From Pontibacter chinhatensis (GTDB lineage Bacteria > Bacteroidota > Bacteroidia > Cytophagales > Hymenobacteraceae), in contig NZ_FOOT01000006.1 in NCBI RefSeq assembly GCF_900113285.1, positions 62,001 to 126,000 on the forward strand: a stretch of DNA of 64,000 bases. The letters are read 5' to 3'. This document shows, in pieces, positions 18,262-27,595 of this stretch (position 1 is the stretch's first letter; each line of letters opens with the position of its first letter). Below the pieces are notes generated by a model that was not told the origin of the DNA, did not search any database, and saw only the letters and a program-made list of their open reading frames with translations. A program made the translations under genes and the position numbers.

Positions 18262-19242
18262 CTATTTGTCTAAAGCCTTGGCGGCTTCTATTAATTTAGG
18301 AACGATCTCAAACGCATCGCCCACAATGCCATAATCAGCGGCTTTGAAGAACGGCGCTTCAGGATCCTTATTAATAACGACAATCACTTTAGAAGAGTTA
18401 ACCCCGGCCAGGTGCTGAATAGCCCCGGAAATACCGATGGCAATGTACAAATTCGGGCTAACGGTAATACCAGTCTGTCCTACGTGCTCGTGGTGCGGTC
18501 TCCAGTCCAGGTCAGAAACCGGCTTGGAGCAGGCCGTGGCAGCGCCCAGCGCTTTTGCCAGATCTTCCACCAGGTGCCAGTTCTCCGGGCCCTTCAGACC
18601 GCGGCCACCGGATACCACAATCTCCGCCTCCTGCAGCAGCACGCCGCCTTCGGTGTCCTGCATCACAGTTTCTTTAGGAGCAGCGGCAAAATCGGCATCC
18701 GAAAGCTCAGCAGAAAGCTTTTCTACCGTAGCCGTGTTACCAGCCGTCTGGGTAATCTCGAAAGCGTTTTTCTTCACGGCAATGATTTTCACATCCGCCG
18801 CCAGGTTCACATCAGCAAAAGCTTTGCCCGAGAACACACCGCGCGTTACGACAAACTGGCCACCATCCGTTTTAGGCAGCGAGGTAACGTTAGTCGCCAG
18901 CGCACCGTTCAGGCGAACTGCCAGTTTAGAACCTACCGCAGCGCCGATATTGGAGTTAGAGAACACCAGCACCTTCGCGTTTTCCTGCTGCGCGGCTTTG
19001 GCAATCACTTTTACATAGGCATCGGCCACAAACTGATTCAGGCGGCTGTCAGCGTCGTACAGTACTCTGCTTATGCCCTGCTCGCCTAATCTGGCCAGTG
19101 CGTCTTCTTGAACCTCACCAATGGCTACGGCCGTGGCTGTGGTGCCCAGCTGCTGTGCCACCTGGCTTCCGTATGATGCAGCCTCCAAAGAGGACTTTTT
19201 GATCTCTCCGTTAAGACCTTCTACAAATACTAATACTGACAT
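18262..19242 (-). CDS. etfA: Electron transfer flavoprotein alpha subunit
   Basis: A 326-residue subunit that binds FAD and carries electrons from acyl-CoA dehydrogenases to the quinone pool. The C-terminal FAD domain is clear: VSGGRGLKGPENWHLVEDLA, ACSKPVSDLDWRPHHEHVGQTGITVSP, and GISGAIQHLAGVNSSKVIVVINKD with the AIQH adenine-binding segment. etfB precedes it with a 2-bp gap. No dehydrogenase or ETF-quinone oxidoreductase gene is in this window. Confidence 0.97.
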   Translation of the reverse strand: MSVLVFVEGLNGEIKKSSLEAASYGSQVAQQLGTTATAVAIGEVQEDALARLGEQGISRVLYDADSRLNQFVADAYVKVIAKAAQQENAKVLVFSNSNIGAAVGSKLAVRLNGALATNVTSLPKTDGGQFVVTRGVFSGKAFADVNLAADVKIIAVKKNAFEITQTAGNTATVEKLSAELSDADFAAAPKETVMQDTEGGVLLQEAEIVVSGGRGLKGPENWHLVEDLAKALGAATACSKPVSDLDWRPHHEHVGQTGITVSPNLYIAIGISGAIQHLAGVNSSKVIVVINKDPEAPFFKAADYGIVGDAFEIVPKLIEAAKALDK

Positions 19243-19244
19243 GG

Positions 19245-19985
19245 TTATAGTACTTTAGCTTCGTTTCTCAATAGTGTAATTAGTTCTCCGGCGTTCTCCG
19301 GGTCAATCATCTTCACGCCGCCTTTTTTCTCCGGCTTGCTGTAGCCTACGTACTCGGCCTTGGCCTCGGCGCCCACTGGCTCCTTCACTGCCAACGGCTT
19401 GGTACGCGCCGTCATGATGCCGCGCATGTTCGGGATTCTTGGCTCCGACATGGGTTGCTGCGCGCTGGCCACGAAAGGCAGCTTCACTTCCACCACTTCT
19501 TTGCCACCCTCAATCTCGCGCTCCAGGCGGGCCGTGCTGTCATCCACCATATCAAGCTTGAAAGCAGGAACTACCGAAGGAATGCCCAGCAGTTCGCCCA
19601 CCATGCCATGCACCTGAGAGCCGTTGTAGTCAATCGACTCCTTGCCCATCAGGATCATGTCGTAGTTACCTTCTTTGGCAACGGCCGCAATCTGCTGCGC
19701 CACGAAGAAAGCATCTACCGGTTTCGCGTTTACGCGGATGGCATCGTCTGCACCAATGGCAAGCGCCTTTCGGATGTTCGGTTCGGCATCGGCCTCCCCT
19801 ACGTTTAATACAGTTACAGTGCCGCCCTTAGCCTCTTTCAGCTCAATGGCGCGGGTCAGTGCATACTCATCCCATGGGTTGATGACATACTGCACCCCGT
19901 TTTTGTCAAATTCTTTATTATCAGCCGTAAAGTTTATCTTGGATGTAGTATCCGGTACGTTACTGATACAAACTAATATTTTCAT
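19245..19985 (-). CDS. etfB: Electron transfer flavoprotein beta subunit
   Basis: A 246-residue ETF beta subunit with the start MKILVCISNVPDTTSKI and NPWDEYALTRAIELKE, the AMP-binding stretch, and DYNGSQVHGMVGELLGIPSV, followed by the recognition loop near EIEGGKEVVEVKLPFVAS. First gene of etfB-etfA-nuclease. It forms the heterodimer with EtfA in the cytosol. Confidence 0.97.
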   Translation of the reverse strand: MKILVCISNVPDTTSKINFTADNKEFDKNGVQYVINPWDEYALTRAIELKEAKGGTVTVLNVGEADAEPNIRKALAIGADDAIRVNAKPVDAFFVAQQIAAVAKEGNYDMILMGKESIDYNGSQVHGMVGELLGIPSVVPAFKLDMVDDSTARLEREIEGGKEVVEVKLPFVASAQQPMSEPRIPNMRGIMTARTKPLAVKEPVGAEAKAEYVGYSKPEKKGGVKMIDPENAGELITLLRNEAKVL

Positions 19986-20050: not shown

Positions 20051-20383
20051 ATGAACGAAAGCAGATTAGCGCAGCTCTTCAAATTCCTGGAAGACGACCC
20101 GAACGACGCATTTACACTATACGCCATAGCCACCGAATACCGTAAGGAAGACCCGCAGAAAGCGCTGGGATATTACGAAAAGCTGCTGAGCGAACACGAG
20201 AGCTACGTAGGCACTTATTATCACGCTGCCAAGCTATACGAGGAGCTGGGCCAAAACGATGTAGCCGAGCAAACTTATAAGAAAGGGATGCTCATCAGCC
20301 GCCGTGAGGGCAACATGCACGCTTTCTCGGAACTGCAGCAGGCTTACAACAAAATGATGGGCCTGGACTACGAGGACGATTAA
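20051..20383 (+). CDS. Small tetratricopeptide-repeat protein
   Basis: The 110 residues form about three TPR helix pairs (DPNDAFTLYAIATEYRKEDPQKALGYYEKLL, then YHAAKLYEELGQNDVAEQTYKKGMLISRREG) without signal peptide or other domain, so it should be a cytosolic adaptor. It is divergent from etfB; a -7-like TAGATTTG (20012-20019) lies upstream, but with no clear -33. Partners unknown. Confidence 0.82.
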   Translation: MNESRLAQLFKFLEDDPNDAFTLYAIATEYRKEDPQKALGYYEKLLSEHESYVGTYYHAAKLYEELGQNDVAEQTYKKGMLISRREGNMHAFSELQQAYNKMMGLDYEDD

Positions 20384-21121: not shown

Positions 21122-21418
21122 CTACTCCCCCACCAGCTCGAAGAAGCGCACCTTCGTTTTTCCGGGCACGAGTTGCAGGCCCTTGGGTATCCCTGCGTGC
21201 GATTCCTTCATGTGGTTCTTGTACCATACTTTGTAGCTTTCCTCGTCGTCCCAGTAAGTTAAGAGCCAGATTTCGTTGGGGTTATCCTGGGGCACCATCA
21301 CATTCATTTTAATAAAACCCGGGGCACTATCCACCAGGTGCGGGCGGTTGATAAAGGCTTCTCGTACTTCGGGCGCCATGTCGTTGGCGATGGTAAAGGT
21401 GCTGGATGCAATAAACAT
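21122..21418 (-). CDS. ABM-fold monooxygenase, IsdG/MhuD-like candidate haem degrader
   Basis: I place the start at 21418 (MFIASSTFTI); a start six codons earlier is possible. The 98 residues have the antibiotic-biosynthesis-monooxygenase fold pattern, with PGFIKMNVMVP and WLLTYWDDEESYKVW. Aligned by eye with haem-degrading members of this fold, Trp65 and His74 sit almost exactly where MhuD has Trp66 and His75; the third residue, Asn7 in MhuD and IsdG, appears to be Ser6 here. It lies 49 bp downstream of a bacteriophytochrome gene on the same strand with no terminator between, so co-transcription is likely. Haem breakdown is inference; many ABM proteins do other things. Confidence 0.65.
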   Translation of the reverse strand: MFIASSTFTIANDMAPEVREAFINRPHLVDSAPGFIKMNVMVPQDNPNEIWLLTYWDDEESYKVWYKNHMKESHAGIPKGLQLVPGKTKVRFFELVGE

Positions 21419-21467
21419 AGGGTATGATTGTGGCAATTATACTTGCGCGTGTAATTCTTTAATTGAT

Positions 21468-23705
21468 TTATACTTTCAGGCATACTTTAAAGGTGGTTCC
21501 CTCTCCCGGGATGCTGTCCACACTAATGCCTCCTCCCAGGGCCTCTGCCTGTACTTTGGTTAAGTATAGCCCCAAGCCCTTGGCGTCTTTGTTCTGGTGG
21601 AAAGTGTTGTATACTTTGAAGATTTTATGGCCGTACCGCTTCAGGTTTATTCCCAACCCATTGTCCTGTACAGAGAAGCATATCCCTTCCTGCTCCTGCC
21701 AGGATTTTACAAGTATGAGCGGCTGCCTTTCCGGCGACCGGTACTTGAGGGCGTTGGAAATGAGGTTATGGGTAATACTTTCCAGGTATACTTTAGGGGC
21801 GGTGATGTGCTTTACCTGCAGGTCCAGCTGTACTTTGGCATCGGTTTGCAGGATGATGGACTGCAGATTCTGTAACTCCCGCTCCACCAGGTCAGGCAGG
21901 TATACTTCCTGGTCCTCCAGCTCGGTGCTTAATTCACTTTCCAGTATCAGGCCTAGATCGTCGAGGGTGGTGGCCATGTTCTGCACCATGTTGTCCATCA
22001 GATGCATCACCTGCACACCAGTCTCTGCGGTGGGTTCATCGTTATACAGGTCAATGAGCCCCTGCATATTGCCCAGCGGGGAGCGCAGGTTGTGGGTGAT
22101 GATGTGCGTGAAATCCTCCAGGCGTCTGTTTTTAGCCCGCAGCATCTCCGACGTCTGGTTCAGCTTCTTGTTCAGATCCAGCAAATGCTCCTTTTGGTTT
22201 CGCAGCACCACGGCTACCAGGTCCTTCACCAGTGTCTGCGCTACCTCTATCTCGTTCAGGCTCCAGGGCAGCGACGTACCCTTTATCACCTGCACCCAAC
22301 GGGCAAACGACTTGCGCGGGTGAATACGGCCCGACTGCTCCTCTACCTCCTTATCAGGTTTGCCCGCCCAGATGCGGGTCTCCGAAATCTCCGGTTTAAA
22401 GTATAAAAGGTACTCCTTGTTAAGCTTGGAAATCTCCAGTGCCAGCAAGCCGCTGGCCTGCTCCTTCATGTCGGCGGCAGCCGGGTAAACGTGGGAAAGC
22501 TGACGGGTATGGAACGTACTGTTGCCCACATGCTCCGCCAGCCACTGCGCCAGGCTTCTGAGGCTTTGCTCCGACGGGGTGTAGCCATAGGTATAACATT
22601 TACCATCCAGCAGCAGGGCCACGCCGCTTGCTTCGGTCAGGGAAAGTACAGCGGCCTGCTGTTTCTGCAGCTCCTCTTGCAAGTTGCGGCTCGCCATCAA
22701 CTGGTTCATCAGCTGCACCTCCTGCACCCGCAGCTCTTCCAGTTGGCGCATATCGCGCTGCTCCTCGTTAGCCAGCACCCCGTTGGCAAATGCCTGCGCT
22801 ATGTTCAGGCAGAGCTGTCGCCTCCAATAGTTGGTAAACAGAGCAGTTTTATGCTGGCACGCGATGATACCCCAGAGTTTTTCGTTGACGATGATGGAAA
22901 TGGAGAGCGTGGCCTGTACACCCATGTTCTGCAGGTACTGCAGGTGAATCTCAGAGGGGTTGCGAAGCTCGGAGCGGATGATGTTGGAGGGCTGGCCGGT
23001 AGTCGGGTTAAAGTATGGCGTGATGTCCACGGCCGTAGCCGACACATTGGCAATTTGCCGCACCGGCTTCTGTAGCAACAACGCGCGCGCCTGTGCCGGA
23101 ATGTCGGAGGCCGGGAAGTGGTGGTGCAGATAGGTATGTACCCCCGGCTTTGCCGTTTCGGCTATTACCTCCCCATGCCAGTCCTCATCAAAGCGGTAGA
23201 GCATTACCTGATCGTAATCGAGCACCTGCTGCACAAATTGGGTTGTCAGTTGCGCTTGTGATACCAGCGTTCCCTGCTGGTCCAGCTTTTCCAGGAAGCG
23301 TGTATAGCCACCTGTCAGGTCCAGTATCTGCTGCCCATGCTGCACCGGCATATAAGGCTCGCACTCGAGCACCAGGCTCCCCTGCGATTCATGCAGGAAA
23401 GCGAAAAACTGCTTCCCCTGCAGTTCTATCAAATCGACTTGCGTACCTGTGTCCAGTTGCAGCCGTATTCTCTCTTCCAGGGTAGTATACTCCTCTTTAA
23501 AAGCAATCGCATTCAGCTTCTTGCCGGGAAGTATGGCAGGATCGGCCTGCAGAAATTCGCCAATGTTGGCGCTAAGCTGCTCCACTTCCAGAGTCTGCTT
23601 GTTGAGGATGAGCATGAAGCCCTGCGGTTGAATCCTGCCGATGAGGTGGATAGGTTCCGTATCGCAATTCGAGAGGTCAACTTTATAGTTGTGGTAATTC
23701 TGCAT
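21468..23705 (-). CDS. Bacteriophytochrome histidine kinase
   Basis: The 745 residues follow the order PAS-GAF-PHY-histidine kinase. Cys14 in NCDTEPIHLIGRIQPQG is the bilin-attaching cysteine of bacteriophytochromes. The GAF domain has FPASDIPAQARAL (with the key Asp) and NPSEIHLQYLQNMGVQATLS (with the conserved His). The PHY tongue reads PRKSFARWVQVIKG then SLPWSLNE. The kinase part has ITHNLRSPLGN as H-box, NLISNALKYRS and VQDNGLGINLKRYG. The protein should sense red/far-red light with a linear tetrapyrrole and phosphorylate an unlinked partner: no receiver domain or response regulator gene is present. An ABM-fold protein, not a classical haem oxygenase, follows it. Confidence 0.95.
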   Translation of the reverse strand: MQNYHNYKVDLSNCDTEPIHLIGRIQPQGFMLILNKQTLEVEQLSANIGEFLQADPAILPGKKLNAIAFKEEYTTLEERIRLQLDTGTQVDLIELQGKQFFAFLHESQGSLVLECEPYMPVQHGQQILDLTGGYTRFLEKLDQQGTLVSQAQLTTQFVQQVLDYDQVMLYRFDEDWHGEVIAETAKPGVHTYLHHHFPASDIPAQARALLLQKPVRQIANVSATAVDITPYFNPTTGQPSNIIRSELRNPSEIHLQYLQNMGVQATLSISIIVNEKLWGIIACQHKTALFTNYWRRQLCLNIAQAFANGVLANEEQRDMRQLEELRVQEVQLMNQLMASRNLQEELQKQQAAVLSLTEASGVALLLDGKCYTYGYTPSEQSLRSLAQWLAEHVGNSTFHTRQLSHVYPAAADMKEQASGLLALEISKLNKEYLLYFKPEISETRIWAGKPDKEVEEQSGRIHPRKSFARWVQVIKGTSLPWSLNEIEVAQTLVKDLVAVVLRNQKEHLLDLNKKLNQTSEMLRAKNRRLEDFTHIITHNLRSPLGNMQGLIDLYNDEPTAETGVQVMHLMDNMVQNMATTLDDLGLILESELSTELEDQEVYLPDLVERELQNLQSIILQTDAKVQLDLQVKHITAPKVYLESITHNLISNALKYRSPERQPLILVKSWQEQEGICFSVQDNGLGINLKRYGHKIFKVYNTFHQNKDAKGLGLYLTKVQAEALGGGISVDSIPGEGTTFKVCLKV

Positions 23706-24151: not shown

Positions 24152-27100
24152 CTAAGCCAGCGTCAGCACTAAATCGTCGGTATTTACTAGTTCGCCCTCT
24201 TTCAACGTTATACTTGCCACCGTTGCATCAGCCGAAGCGGTGATGGTTGTTTCCATTTTCATGGCCTCAATCACGAAGAGCGGCGTGTTCTTTTTCACCT
24301 GCTGGTCCTTCTCCACCAGTATCTTCGACAAGAGCCCCTGCAGCGGCGCGCCAATTTGTTTGGGGTTACTCTTGTCTACTTTCTGATGCTCCACGCGCTC
24401 CACCTTTACCGATTTGTCGCGCACGTCGATGTTGCGGCTTTGGCCGTTGAGCTTGAAGAACACGGTACGCATGCCGTCTTCGTTTACGTGGCCCGTGGAC
24501 TGGTACTTGATGACGATAGACTTGCCGCGGGCAATGTCGATGATGGCCTCCTCGCCGGGCTGCAGCCCGTAGAAAAACAGGCGCGTTGGGATTTTAGACA
24601 CATCTCCATACAGCTCCACGTGCTTGTGATAGGCCTCGTATACTTTGGGATAAAGCTGGTAACTCAGGAAATCAGTGAATTTGGTCTCCTTCCCAAATTT
24701 CTCCTGGAACGCAGCAAACTCTTTCTCAAAATCCACGGGCGCCAGGTGCTCGTTTGGCCGGTCGGTAAAGGGCTGCTCGTCTTTCAGTATAATATCCTGC
24801 AGCTTTTTCGGGAAGCCGCCCACCGGCTGCCCCAGTTCGCCTTTAAAAAACGACTGTACCGACTCCGGAAACGAAATTTCCTCGCCCCGCTCCAGCACAT
24901 CTACCGTAGTCAAATCATTAGAAACCAAGTATAAAGCCATATCGCCTACCACTTTGGAACTGGGTGTTACCTTCACCACATCCCCGAACAGTTGGTTCAC
25001 CTCGGCGTAGGTCTCCTTTATCTCCTCCCACTTATCACCCAGGCCCAACGCATTGGCTTGCGGACGCAGGTTGGAGTACTGCCCTCCCGGAATCTCGTGG
25101 CGGTATACTTCGGCCGTGCCCGCTTTTAGCCCAGACTCAAACGGATAGTAGTACTCGCGTACCGTTTCCCAGTAGTTGGCGTGCTGGTTCAGGCTTTTCT
25201 GGTCGAACTCGCGGTGGCGCTCCTGAAAACGCATCGTCTCCACCATGGCGTTAAAGTTGGGCTGAGAGGTAAGCCCCGACATCGCCCCCAGCGCCACATC
25301 CACCACATCTACCCCGGCTTCAATGGCCTTCAGGTAAGTGGCTGACTGCACGGAAGATGTATCGTGCGTGTGCAGGTGGATGGGGAGCTTCACCGTTTCG
25401 CGCAAAGCCGTGATGAGTTCGGCGGCAGCGTAGGGCTTCAGCAGGCCGGCCATGTCTTTGATAGCCAGTATATGCGCCCCGGCCTCTTCCATCTGCCGGG
25501 CCAGTTGCAGGTAGTAGTCTAAAGTATACTTTGTTTTCTGCGGGTTCAGGATATCGCCGGTGTAGCAGATGGCCACCTCCGCCAGCCCTTGCGTCCGCTT
25601 GCGCACGAAGTTGATGCAGGGCTCCATACTTTTCATCCAGTTGAGCGAGTCGAAAATGCGGAAAATGTCCACGCCCGTCTCCCAGGATTTCTCCACAAAT
25701 GCCTCAATTAGGTTATCCGGGTATGCCTTATACCCTACCCCGTTGGAGCCCCGGATGAGCATCTGCAATAGGATGTTCGGCACCGCCTTTCGGATTTGCG
25801 CGAGCCTGTCCCAGGGGTCTTCGTGCAGGAAGCGCAGGCACACATCAAAGGTGGCGCCGCCCCATACTTCCATGCTGAAGGTCTGCGGGTGGTCCTTGGC
25901 AAAGGCCTCGGCAATTTTGAGCATATCAAAGGTGCGCATGCGGGTGGCCAGCAGCGATTGGTGCGCGTCGCGGAAGGTGGTGTCGGTGTAGTGGATGAGC
26001 GGATCGTTGCGCAGCCATTCGGAAAAGGCCTCTGGTCCCAGCTCGGTCAGCAGGTCCTTGGTGCCTTTCTCGTAAGGTTTGTTGGTGTTGAACGGGTGGA
26101 GATTTGGCTTGCGCAGCACTTTGCTATGGTCTACCTTTTTCACGTCCGGGTTTCCGTTCACGATCACGTCAGCCAGGTAGGAGAGCATTTTAGTGGCCCT
26201 GTCCTTGCGCTGCTTAAACACGAACAGCTCCGGGTGGTTCTTCACGAAATCAACCGTAGAGTCGCCGGAGATAAATTCGGGGTGATTGATGATGTTTTGC
26301 AGGAACTGCAGGTTGTGCTTCACGCCCCGGATGCGGAATTCGTCGAGCGTGCGCGCCATTTTATTCGCTGCCAAAGCCAATGTAGGCGCATGCGTGGATA
26401 CCTTGACCAGCAATGAGTCGAAGAAGGGGCTGATCTTGGCGCCCGGGTACACGCTGCCCTGGTCCAGCCGGATGCCAAAGCCGCCGGCGCTGCGGTAGGC
26501 GATGATGGTGCCATAGTCCGGCTTGAAATCGTTCTCCGGGTCCTCGGTGGTGATGCGGCACTGGATGGCCACCCCATTGGCGCGCACCACGTGCTGCGGC
26601 CCCAGCAGCACTTCCTCGTCATCCAGGCGGTACCCGTCGGCAATGTAAATCTGCGTCTTTATCAGGTCAATGCCCGTGATCATCTCCGTCACCGTGTGCT
26701 CCACCTGGATGCGCGGGTTTACCTCAATAAAGTAAATGTTATCCGTGTGCGGCTCCACCAGAAACTCCACCGTGCCCACGTTATTATAGTTTACCGCCTT
26801 GCAGATGCGGATGGCGTAGTCGTAGAGCTTCTGGCGCGTTTCCTCTTTCAGGCTGATGGCCGGAGCCACCTCCACCACCTTCTGAAAACGACGCTGCACC
26901 GAGCAATCGCGCTCGAACAGGTGCGTGATGTTCCCATAGGTGTCGGCCACTATCTGTACCTCGATGTGCTTGGGGTTCTCCACGTACTTCTCCAGGAAAA
27001 CCGTGTCGTCGCCGAAGGCCTTCAGCGCCTCGTTACGGGCCTCAAAAAAGCCCTTCTCCAGCTGCTCATCATCCCGGATAACGCGCATGCCGCGGCCTCC

Positions 27101-27595
27101 GCCACCGGCAGCGGCTTTCAGCATCAGCGGGTAGCCAATGCGGTGCGCCTCCTCCAGTGCCGTTTCGAAGGTGTTCAGGTCCAGGTCGTTGCTTTGGATG
27201 ATGGGCACATCACAACTGACTGCCACCTTCTTGGCCGCTATCTTGTCCCCCAGCGAGGCCATTACCTGCGGCCTCGGCCCAATGAAGACAATTCCGTTAT
27301 CGGCACACTTCTGGGAAAAGTGCTGGTTCTCGGACAGGAAGCCATAGCCCGGATGAATGGCGTCTACGTTGTTCTCTTTGGCAATCCGGATGATGCCGTC
27401 TATATCGAGGTAAGGCTGCAGGGGCTGGTTGTCCTTGCCAATCTGGTAGGCCTCATCTGCCTTGTAGCGGTGCAGGGAGTAGCGGTCCTCGTAGGTATAA
27501 ATGGCCACTGTTTGGATGTTCATCTCCGTGCAGGCACGCAGCACCCGAATCGCGATCTCGCCGCGGTTGGCAACAAGTACTTTTTTAATTTTCAT
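24152..27595 (-). CDS. pyc: Pyruvate carboxylase
   Basis: A single 1147-residue chain carboxylates pyruvate to oxaloacetate for anaplerosis. The biotin carboxylase domain is N-terminal (VLVANRGEIAIRVLRAC, AAAGGGGRGMRV, EVNPRIQVEHTVTEMITG). The carboxyltransferase domain begins with YTDTTFRDAHQSLLATRMRT and includes KDMAGLLKPYAA with the metal-binding region LHTHDTSS. The C-terminal carrier domain has EAMKMET with the biotinylated lysine about 35 residues from the end. Length and order are complete. It stands alone between repeat-bearing spacers. Confidence 0.97.
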   Translation of the reverse strand: MKIKKVLVANRGEIAIRVLRACTEMNIQTVAIYTYEDRYSLHRYKADEAYQIGKDNQPLQPYLDIDGIIRIAKENNVDAIHPGYGFLSENQHFSQKCADNGIVFIGPRPQVMASLGDKIAAKKVAVSCDVPIIQSNDLDLNTFETALEEAHRIGYPLMLKAAAGGGGRGMRVIRDDEQLEKGFFEARNEALKAFGDDTVFLEKYVENPKHIEVQIVADTYGNITHLFERDCSVQRRFQKVVEVAPAISLKEETRQKLYDYAIRICKAVNYNNVGTVEFLVEPHTDNIYFIEVNPRIQVEHTVTEMITGIDLIKTQIYIADGYRLDDEEVLLGPQHVVRANGVAIQCRITTEDPENDFKPDYGTIIAYRSAGGFGIRLDQGSVYPGAKISPFFDSLLVKVSTHAPTLALAANKMARTLDEFRIRGVKHNLQFLQNIINHPEFISGDSTVDFVKNHPELFVFKQRKDRATKMLSYLADVIVNGNPDVKKVDHSKVLRKPNLHPFNTNKPYEKGTKDLLTELGPEAFSEWLRNDPLIHYTDTTFRDAHQSLLATRMRTFDMLKIAEAFAKDHPQTFSMEVWGGATFDVCLRFLHEDPWDRLAQIRKAVPNILLQMLIRGSNGVGYKAYPDNLIEAFVEKSWETGVDIFRIFDSLNWMKSMEPCINFVRKRTQGLAEVAICYTGDILNPQKTKYTLDYYLQLARQMEEAGAHILAIKDMAGLLKPYAAAELITALRETVKLPIHLHTHDTSSVQSATYLKAIEAGVDVVDVALGAMSGLTSQPNFNAMVETMRFQERHREFDQKSLNQHANYWETVREYYYPFESGLKAGTAEVYRHEIPGGQYSNLRPQANALGLGDKWEEIKETYAEVNQLFGDVVKVTPSSKVVGDMALYLVSNDLTTVDVLERGEEISFPESVQSFFKGELGQPVGGFPKKLQDIILKDEQPFTDRPNEHLAPVDFEKEFAAFQEKFGKETKFTDFLSYQLYPKVYEAYHKHVELYGDVSKIPTRLFFYGLQPGEEAIIDIARGKSIVIKYQSTGHVNEDGMRTVFFKLNGQSRNIDVRDKSVKVERVEHQKVDKSNPKQIGAPLQGLLSKILVEKDQQVKKNTPLFVIEAMKMETTITASADATVASITLKEGELVNTDDLVLTLA

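Follow-up and report, generated by a model that had tools for sequence, protein, structure and literature searches.

Where does a bacteriophytochrome obtain its linear tetrapyrrole in a cell whose genome encodes no classical haem oxygenase (HO)? The question is raised by a stretch of 64,000 nucleotides from Pontibacter chinhatensis (contig NZ_FOOT01000006.1, positions 62,001 to 126,000 of the forward strand; below, the window), in which a phytochrome gene is followed by a small gene of the antibiotic biosynthesis monooxygenase (ABM) fold that resembles IsdG and MhuD. We suggest that this ABM protein is probably the bilin-forming haem oxygenase of the photoreceptor and replaces BphO in this role. 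Its haem binding, ring opening, product and delivery of the chromophore we infer from the observed fold, residues, gene linkage and exclusion of HO. Our confidence in the role is carried by the exclusion and by the linkage to photoglobin genes. The features of the pair, with positions in the window, are the following.

21468..23705, minus strand: bacteriophytochrome histidine kinase (PAS-GAF-PHY-kinase), 745 aa, from Pfam domains and alignment
23664..23666, minus strand: Cys14 codon, position of the biliverdin-attachment cysteine, from SNCDTEPIH aligned with solved bacteriophytochromes
22854..22856, minus strand: Gln284 codon, at the place of a pocket His of other phytochromes (His290 in the numbering that we assume), from alignment of phytochromes
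21419..21467, minus strand: spacer of 49 bases from the phytochrome to the ABM gene, from the sequence
21122..21418, minus strand: ABM-fold IsdG/MhuD-like protein, 98 aa, proposed bilin-forming haem oxygenase, from PF03992 match, profile and predicted structure
21401..21403, minus strand: Ser6 codon, at the place of the catalytic Asn7 of IsdG/MhuD, from alignment
21224..21226, minus strand: Trp65 codon (Trp66 of MhuD), from alignment
21197..21199, minus strand: His74 codon (His75 of MhuD, the axial haem ligand), from alignment

The larger protein is by its sequence a complete bacteriophytochrome. PAS_2, GAF, PHY and HATPase_c all exceed their Pfam cut-offs, and the alignment gives the N-terminal Cys within SNCDTEPIH, the PASDIP motif and the pocket His within SEIH. 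It thus has the PAS-GAF-PHY photosensory core together with this Cys; a photochromic bilin adduct is predicted. The ABM gene begins with ATG at 21418, stops at 21122 and matches PF03992 with E 9.9e-12 and 45.3 bits. A first-pass annotation, made from the letters of the DNA, had placed a 98-residue ABM-fold gene on the same strand, 49 bp downstream of the phytochrome with no terminator between; the coordinates agree with it, as does a consensus-only scan that found no terminator-like site in the spacer.

In the genome to which the window belongs (5.07 Mb, 99.99% complete, genus group g1) nothing matches PF01126, the family of HO-1 and BphO, even at E 10, or a family-specific HO profile at E 0.01; these negatives cover enzymes of the PF01126 type, with the HugZ, HemS and ChuW types outside the search. 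In this sense the earlier supposition that the ABM protein stands instead of a classical HO holds over the full genome. The same relation is seen across 204 genomes of the family, whose genus groups include g1 (Pontibacter), g6 (Rufibacter), and g3 and g2 (Adhaeribacter). A phytochrome is present in 163 of them, ABM in 70 and HO in 95, the last count being the same by the family-specific profile and by PF01126 over its cut-off (six further genomes match PF01126 below the cut-off, with E up to 0.1). Comparison of the sets divides the 163 phytochrome genomes into 95 with HO and 68 with ABM; none has both and none has neither. The two ABM genomes without a phytochrome, G050 and G055, have a photoglobin gene adjoining ABM. 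Among the 50 genomes of g1 in our first set of 99 relatives, phytochrome and ABM each occur in 49 and HO in none; G019 lacks both and the other 49 carry both. Outside the family (38 genomes) ABM is found in none, a phytochrome match in nine and HO in seven of those nine, while G065, G078 and G091 have HO and no phytochrome. Of 36 HO loci tried, 20 had the frame in register, and 14 of those entered our set A2.

Could this be inheritance only, with two old clades that differ in several genes? On the phytochrome tree, which has 70 rows taken from the available loci (one genome counted twice, long branches flagged), two changes of the ABM/HO label suffice. Hence the 163 genomes are not 163 tests, and the tree points to two separate ABM-served phytochrome lineages. 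It also fits such an explanation that g1 and g6 supply 65 of the 68 ABM-phytochrome genomes. We nevertheless consider inheritance alone highly improbable: the seven phytochrome genomes of g3 divide into four with HO and three with ABM in exact exclusion, the ABM tree shows repeated re-linkage (nine linkage changes, at least three of them forced, from few columns), and ABM is linked to photoglobins in Proteobacteria and Acidobacteria.

Counted within 5 kb, 42 of the 71 ABM copies of the family lie near a phytochrome gene, eight stand directly beside a photoglobin gene and 21 are unlinked. The order is PHY>ABM, as in the window, in 12 of the 71; PHY>kinase>ABM, with a short phytochrome and a hybrid kinase, in 16; ABM>PHY>kinase in three; ABM>photoglobin in eight; in 11 ABM is divergent from PHY, once from a PHY-kinase pair. 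The pairing of ABM with photoreceptors is more than chance, and conservation of the pair in related genomes, on which the first-pass annotation had made its idea depend, is found: synteny of ABM with phytochromes and photoglobins recurs. In all 87 genomes for which both coordinates are available (8 of the 95 are left out), no more than 2.2 kb separates HO from a PHY domain. In g3 the cassettes read HO>PHY>kinase in G051, G056, G060 and G101, and PHY>kinase>ABM in their congeners G099 and G102. A swap in place from HO to ABM within g3 was considered and rejected: the phytochromes of G099 and G102 nest among those of g1 and g6 on the tree, and transfer of the whole cassette is therefore likelier.

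Alternatively, ABM might degrade haem for iron or haem homeostasis, and the photoreceptor neighbourhood would then be hitch-hiking or an effect of light regulation. Iron acquisition is the usual role of IsdG-family enzymes (PMC6018153), and the unlinked copies are in line with such a role. We regard it as very unlikely, given the linkage of ABM to family phytochromes and, in several phyla, to photoglobins, the mutual exclusion of HO and ABM, and the lack of both ABM and phytochrome in G019.

Photoglobins, the second class of ABM partners, are bilin photoreceptors of a family unrelated to phytochromes. The linear tetrapyrrole is common to both, and this shared feature is the strongest pointer to the function of ABM. 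Thirty-one distant ABM loci, with 53-66% identity, come from Burkholderiales, Gammaproteobacteria, Acidobacteria, Nitrospirae, Chthoniobacteraceae, Ferruginibacter and others. A photoglobin-B12 gene adjoins ABM on the same strand in 30 of them; in the other, L202, the contig ends soon after ABM. Phycobilisome, B12-binding_2 and B12-binding exceed their cut-offs in all three partners scanned (two from Adhaeribacter, one distant). The partner family carries C-x-[Q/E]-D, and the Cys and Asp of the CXQD-type motif are found in 28 of the 30 distant photoglobins. With a phycobilisome-like globin, B12-binding domains and this motif, the distant partners are, as judged from sequence, of the photoglobin-B12 or photocobilin type. 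The CXQD motif is reported for photoglobins (PMC10151467), and photocobilins of the photoglobin-B12 build bind B12 and biliverdin experimentally (PMC10979010). PF01126 is absent from 31 of 35 genomes with an ABM-photoglobin pair (5 of the family, 30 distant), a count over genomes of unknown completeness, many of them metagenome-assembled. In G229 (g6) a phytochrome and a photoglobin each have an ABM gene of their own as neighbour, two copies in all.

A photoglobin-type gene is found in 20 genomes of the family, in eight beside ABM and in 12 without adjacent ABM. Cys44, Asp47, Tyr70, Trp73 and Arg81 are kept in all eight photoglobins beside ABM. Cys44 and Asp47 together are found in none of the 10 alignable photoglobins without adjacent ABM (two of the 12 are not alignable there), where it should be noted that the profile was built from ABM-adjacent members and nine of the 12 match weakly (19-43 bits). 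All 20 retain W-x9-EH in their B12 part. The [DNE]-x-H-x-x-G motif is found in 14, and the six misses are all from g5, so the B12 part is changed there too. Among the 12 without adjacent ABM, G202 and G241 have HO in the genome. The clean cases of photoglobin motif loss are G019, G025 and G045.

Hence, we suggest the following mechanism. The ABM subfamily would open haem to a linear tetrapyrrole, ABM taking the place of BphO. The resulting bilin would load the bacteriophytochromes of the Pontibacter, Rufibacter and, in part, Adhaeribacter genus groups, and elsewhere the globin domain of photoglobin-B12 photoreceptors. In the window, a single operon would encode the phytochrome and ABM, and the window ABM may also serve the second phytochrome of the genome.

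This second phytochrome is short (516 aa; contig C13:388569-389105, locus L134) and precedes the gene of a 1380-aa hybrid-type kinase, which we take to be a CheB/CheR-hybrid. Neither ABM nor HO adjoins it on C13.

Does the ABM protein itself fit the role of a bilin-forming haem oxygenase? Ser6, Arg25, Trp56, Trp65 and His74 are invariant in all 102 members compared (71 family copies, found by whole-protein or profile search, and 31 distant ones), and His69 is retained in 100; in the distant loci the invariance of Ser6 and Trp56 is partly by choice, because both were residues of the three search patterns with which these loci were fetched, Ser6 of one of them. Searched against the PDB at E 0.001, a profile built from 51 members hits 17 distinct sequences; going by their names, these are IsdG, IsdI, MhuD (Rv3592) and HmoB, together with relatives that are unassigned, TT1380 for example. 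The closest structures to the AlphaFold2 model (pLDDT 90.4) are TT1380 (Z 12.8), MhuD with haem (Z 12.5) and MhuD R26S with biliverdin (Z 12.2). Other ABM proteins come close behind, so the fold alone says little on function. Trp65 and His74 align with Trp66 and His75 of MhuD, as had been read from the sequence at first pass; the protein combines the ABM (PF03992) ferredoxin-like fold with the axial His and the haem-ruffling Trp of IsdG/MhuD enzymes (aligned with MhuD and HmoB). In Pfam it matches only ABM and not PF01126.

The catalytic Asn of the triad is the missing part. The first-pass annotation had noticed Ser at this place and thought that it weakens the case or points to altered chemistry, and Ser6 indeed aligns with Asn7. 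A decayed site does not fit the invariance of this residue, and we take Ser6 as the mark of a subfamily, because it is found in 71 of 71 family and 31 of 31 distant copies. Since the catalytic Asn is absent, the protein is filed not as an IsdG/MhuD member but with a related subfamily whose mode of action may be similar, and it is best read as a distinct IsdG/MhuD-like subfamily with the set Ser6-Trp65-His74. Two ABM paralogues of the same genome (L001, L003) were considered as substitutes; by eye they lack a Ser/Trp/His set with the same spacing and are therefore not obvious ones.

The ABM protein might instead work on the bilin or on chromophore assembly, as an isomerase, reductase helper or lyase, while a haem oxygenase of another type opens haem. 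Room for this is left by the varied chemistry of ABM-fold proteins (the structural matches include polyketide oxygenases and LsrG), by the Asn-to-Ser change at the catalytic centre, and by the HugZ, HemS and ChuW types lying outside our HO search. However, an accessory enzyme should coexist with HO, and ABM and HO are found together in 0 of the 204 family genomes, though in four of the 30 distant ones; moreover, the PDB profile matches are haem-degrading proteins or unassigned relatives. We consider this explanation unlikely.

Which bilin would the ABM haem oxygenase make? Most probably it would form biliverdin (IX-alpha, or a bilin that the phytochrome accepts as such), although we hold this less firmly than the role itself; biliverdin would be likelier than an unusual bilin. 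Biliverdin is what photocobilins take up. An IsdG-like Bradyrhizobium enzyme is reported to make biliverdin (PMC6449446), and biliverdin is a minor product of MhuD (PMC8801480). The Cys and the pocket His are conserved in the short phytochromes of HO genomes (4 of 4) as well as of ABM genomes (36 of 36), and where 13 of these proteins (4 HO, 9 ABM) were aligned over further motifs the differences are small. Against biliverdin stands the Gln at the His290 place, found in all 12 phytochromes directly upstream of ABM and in none of the other 57 compared, which have His. The 12 form one clade, so this is one event, but it leaves some probability for an altered chromophore. A product distinct from biliverdin IX-alpha, such as a bilin that retains the meso carbon or is cleaved differently, with the receptors tuned to it and Gln as a co-adaptation, seems to us rather unlikely.

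Several observations weigh against the assignment of ABM as the haem oxygenase of these photoreceptors. Besides the scope of the HO search, the phytochrome tree allows few independent switches. In G060 (L137) and G211 (G211:C1:3284315-3284859), two of the 95 HO genomes, the HO gene that adjoins the phytochrome is divided between two reading frames, through an error of sequencing or because the gene is disrupted; hence both may lack a working HO, and neither has ABM. Outside the family, neither HO nor ABM is found in G097, which has a clear phytochrome, and in G077, with a weak and partial phytochrome match. Four of the 30 distant genomes carry HO as well as ABM, and none of the five family genomes counted with them does. 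In G025 and G045 the photoglobin motif has decayed despite an ABM gene at another place in the genome; G019 carries a photoglobin, with an altered motif, but lacks HO and ABM alike. Of the 21 unlinked ABM copies, one has a phytochrome 12.2 kb off. The presence of Ser6 in a search pattern has been mentioned. The protein stays far below the NCBIfam equivalog cut-off, the best match being HmuQ with 29.9 of 130 bits. Asn7, which is replaced by Ser in the subfamily, is critical in IsdG, and N7A reduces MhuD activity (PMC6018153). Finally, staphylobilin or mycobilin is the usual product of the ABM-fold enzymes known so far.

The surroundings of the pair are relevant to its history. The flanks found by locus comparison are as follows.

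24152..27595, minus strand: left-flank gene of the site, conserved in many relatives, presumably pyruvate carboxylase
20051..20383, plus strand: right-flank gene of the site, 110 aa, conserved, which we take to be TPR-like
18262..19985, minus strand: right-flank genes of the site, conserved, presumably electron-transfer flavoprotein genes (etf)

Near the TPR/etf flank lie 17 of the 20 family photoglobins (12 of 12 without ABM and 5 of 8 with ABM). We infer that this site once held an ABM-photoglobin pair and that the phytochrome replaced the photoglobin in the clade of the window. At the same site in nine loci (L309-L316 and L320; g5, one g4) there is a diverged photoglobin-like B12 protein without ABM; the bilin motif is lost in seven of them and two are not alignable there. 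In the distant loci L183-L220 the ABM-photoglobin pair often precedes a gene for a GGDEF or histidine kinase protein (domains scanned in L183 and L213), whose start we take to be PAS-like. This suggests a light-controlled c-di-GMP or two-component output. The window also contains the heptamer AAGTATA 167 times on both strands, with 5.0 expected from dinucleotide shuffles. It is found in genes and spacers, its density varies strongly across the loci of relatives, from 0 to 3.2 per kb, and it is a lineage-specific word like HIP1.

For the bilins of IsdG-like enzymes, the LFO1 paper suggests a use in light-signalling pathways yet to be discovered (PMC5557675). The genetics of the ABM subfamily point directly to light sensing. 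In the open-licence literature, as far as the beginnings of abstracts go, we found no proposal tying phytochromes to IsdG-like or ABM enzymes. The subfamily is widespread, and the phytochrome-ABM pair provides a ready-made two-gene test. If ABM is the bilin-forming enzyme, this would account for the chromophore supply in phytochrome and photoglobin bacteria without HO, would correct the generic label 'antibiotic biosynthesis monooxygenase' for the group, and would provide a 98-residue chromophore-supply gene for near-infrared tools; a product other than biliverdin would mean a new chromophore class for bacterial photoreceptors.

In comparison with known systems, ABM occupies the same place by the PHY-kinase cassette as does, in relatives, BphO/HO-1 (PF01126), the enzyme of bphO-bphP operons, but the two families are unrelated and BphO is absent from the window genome. 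With IsdG, MhuD and HmoB the ABM subfamily shares the fold and the positions of the Trp and the axial His, and its Arg25 is at Arg26 of MhuD. It differs from them by the distal Ser instead of Asn, by the photoreceptor linkage and by the sub-cut-off NCBIfam scores. HmuQ/HmuD of Bradyrhizobium has an IsdG-like sequence with biliverdin reported as product, and HmuQ is the best NCBIfam match; unlike ABM, which reaches the low score given above, HmuQ/HmuD is said to resemble HO-1 more in structure and function (PMC6449446). The distant partners of ABM have the same domains and CXQD-type motif as the photocobilins (PMC10979010) and BBAGs (PMC10151467). In the available parts of their text, the terms heme oxygenase, monooxygenase and oxygenase are absent from PMC10979010, and monooxygenase and IsdG (as word starts) from PMC10151467. 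Such papers link these globins with canonical HO or name no oxygenase, whereas the partner here is ABM.

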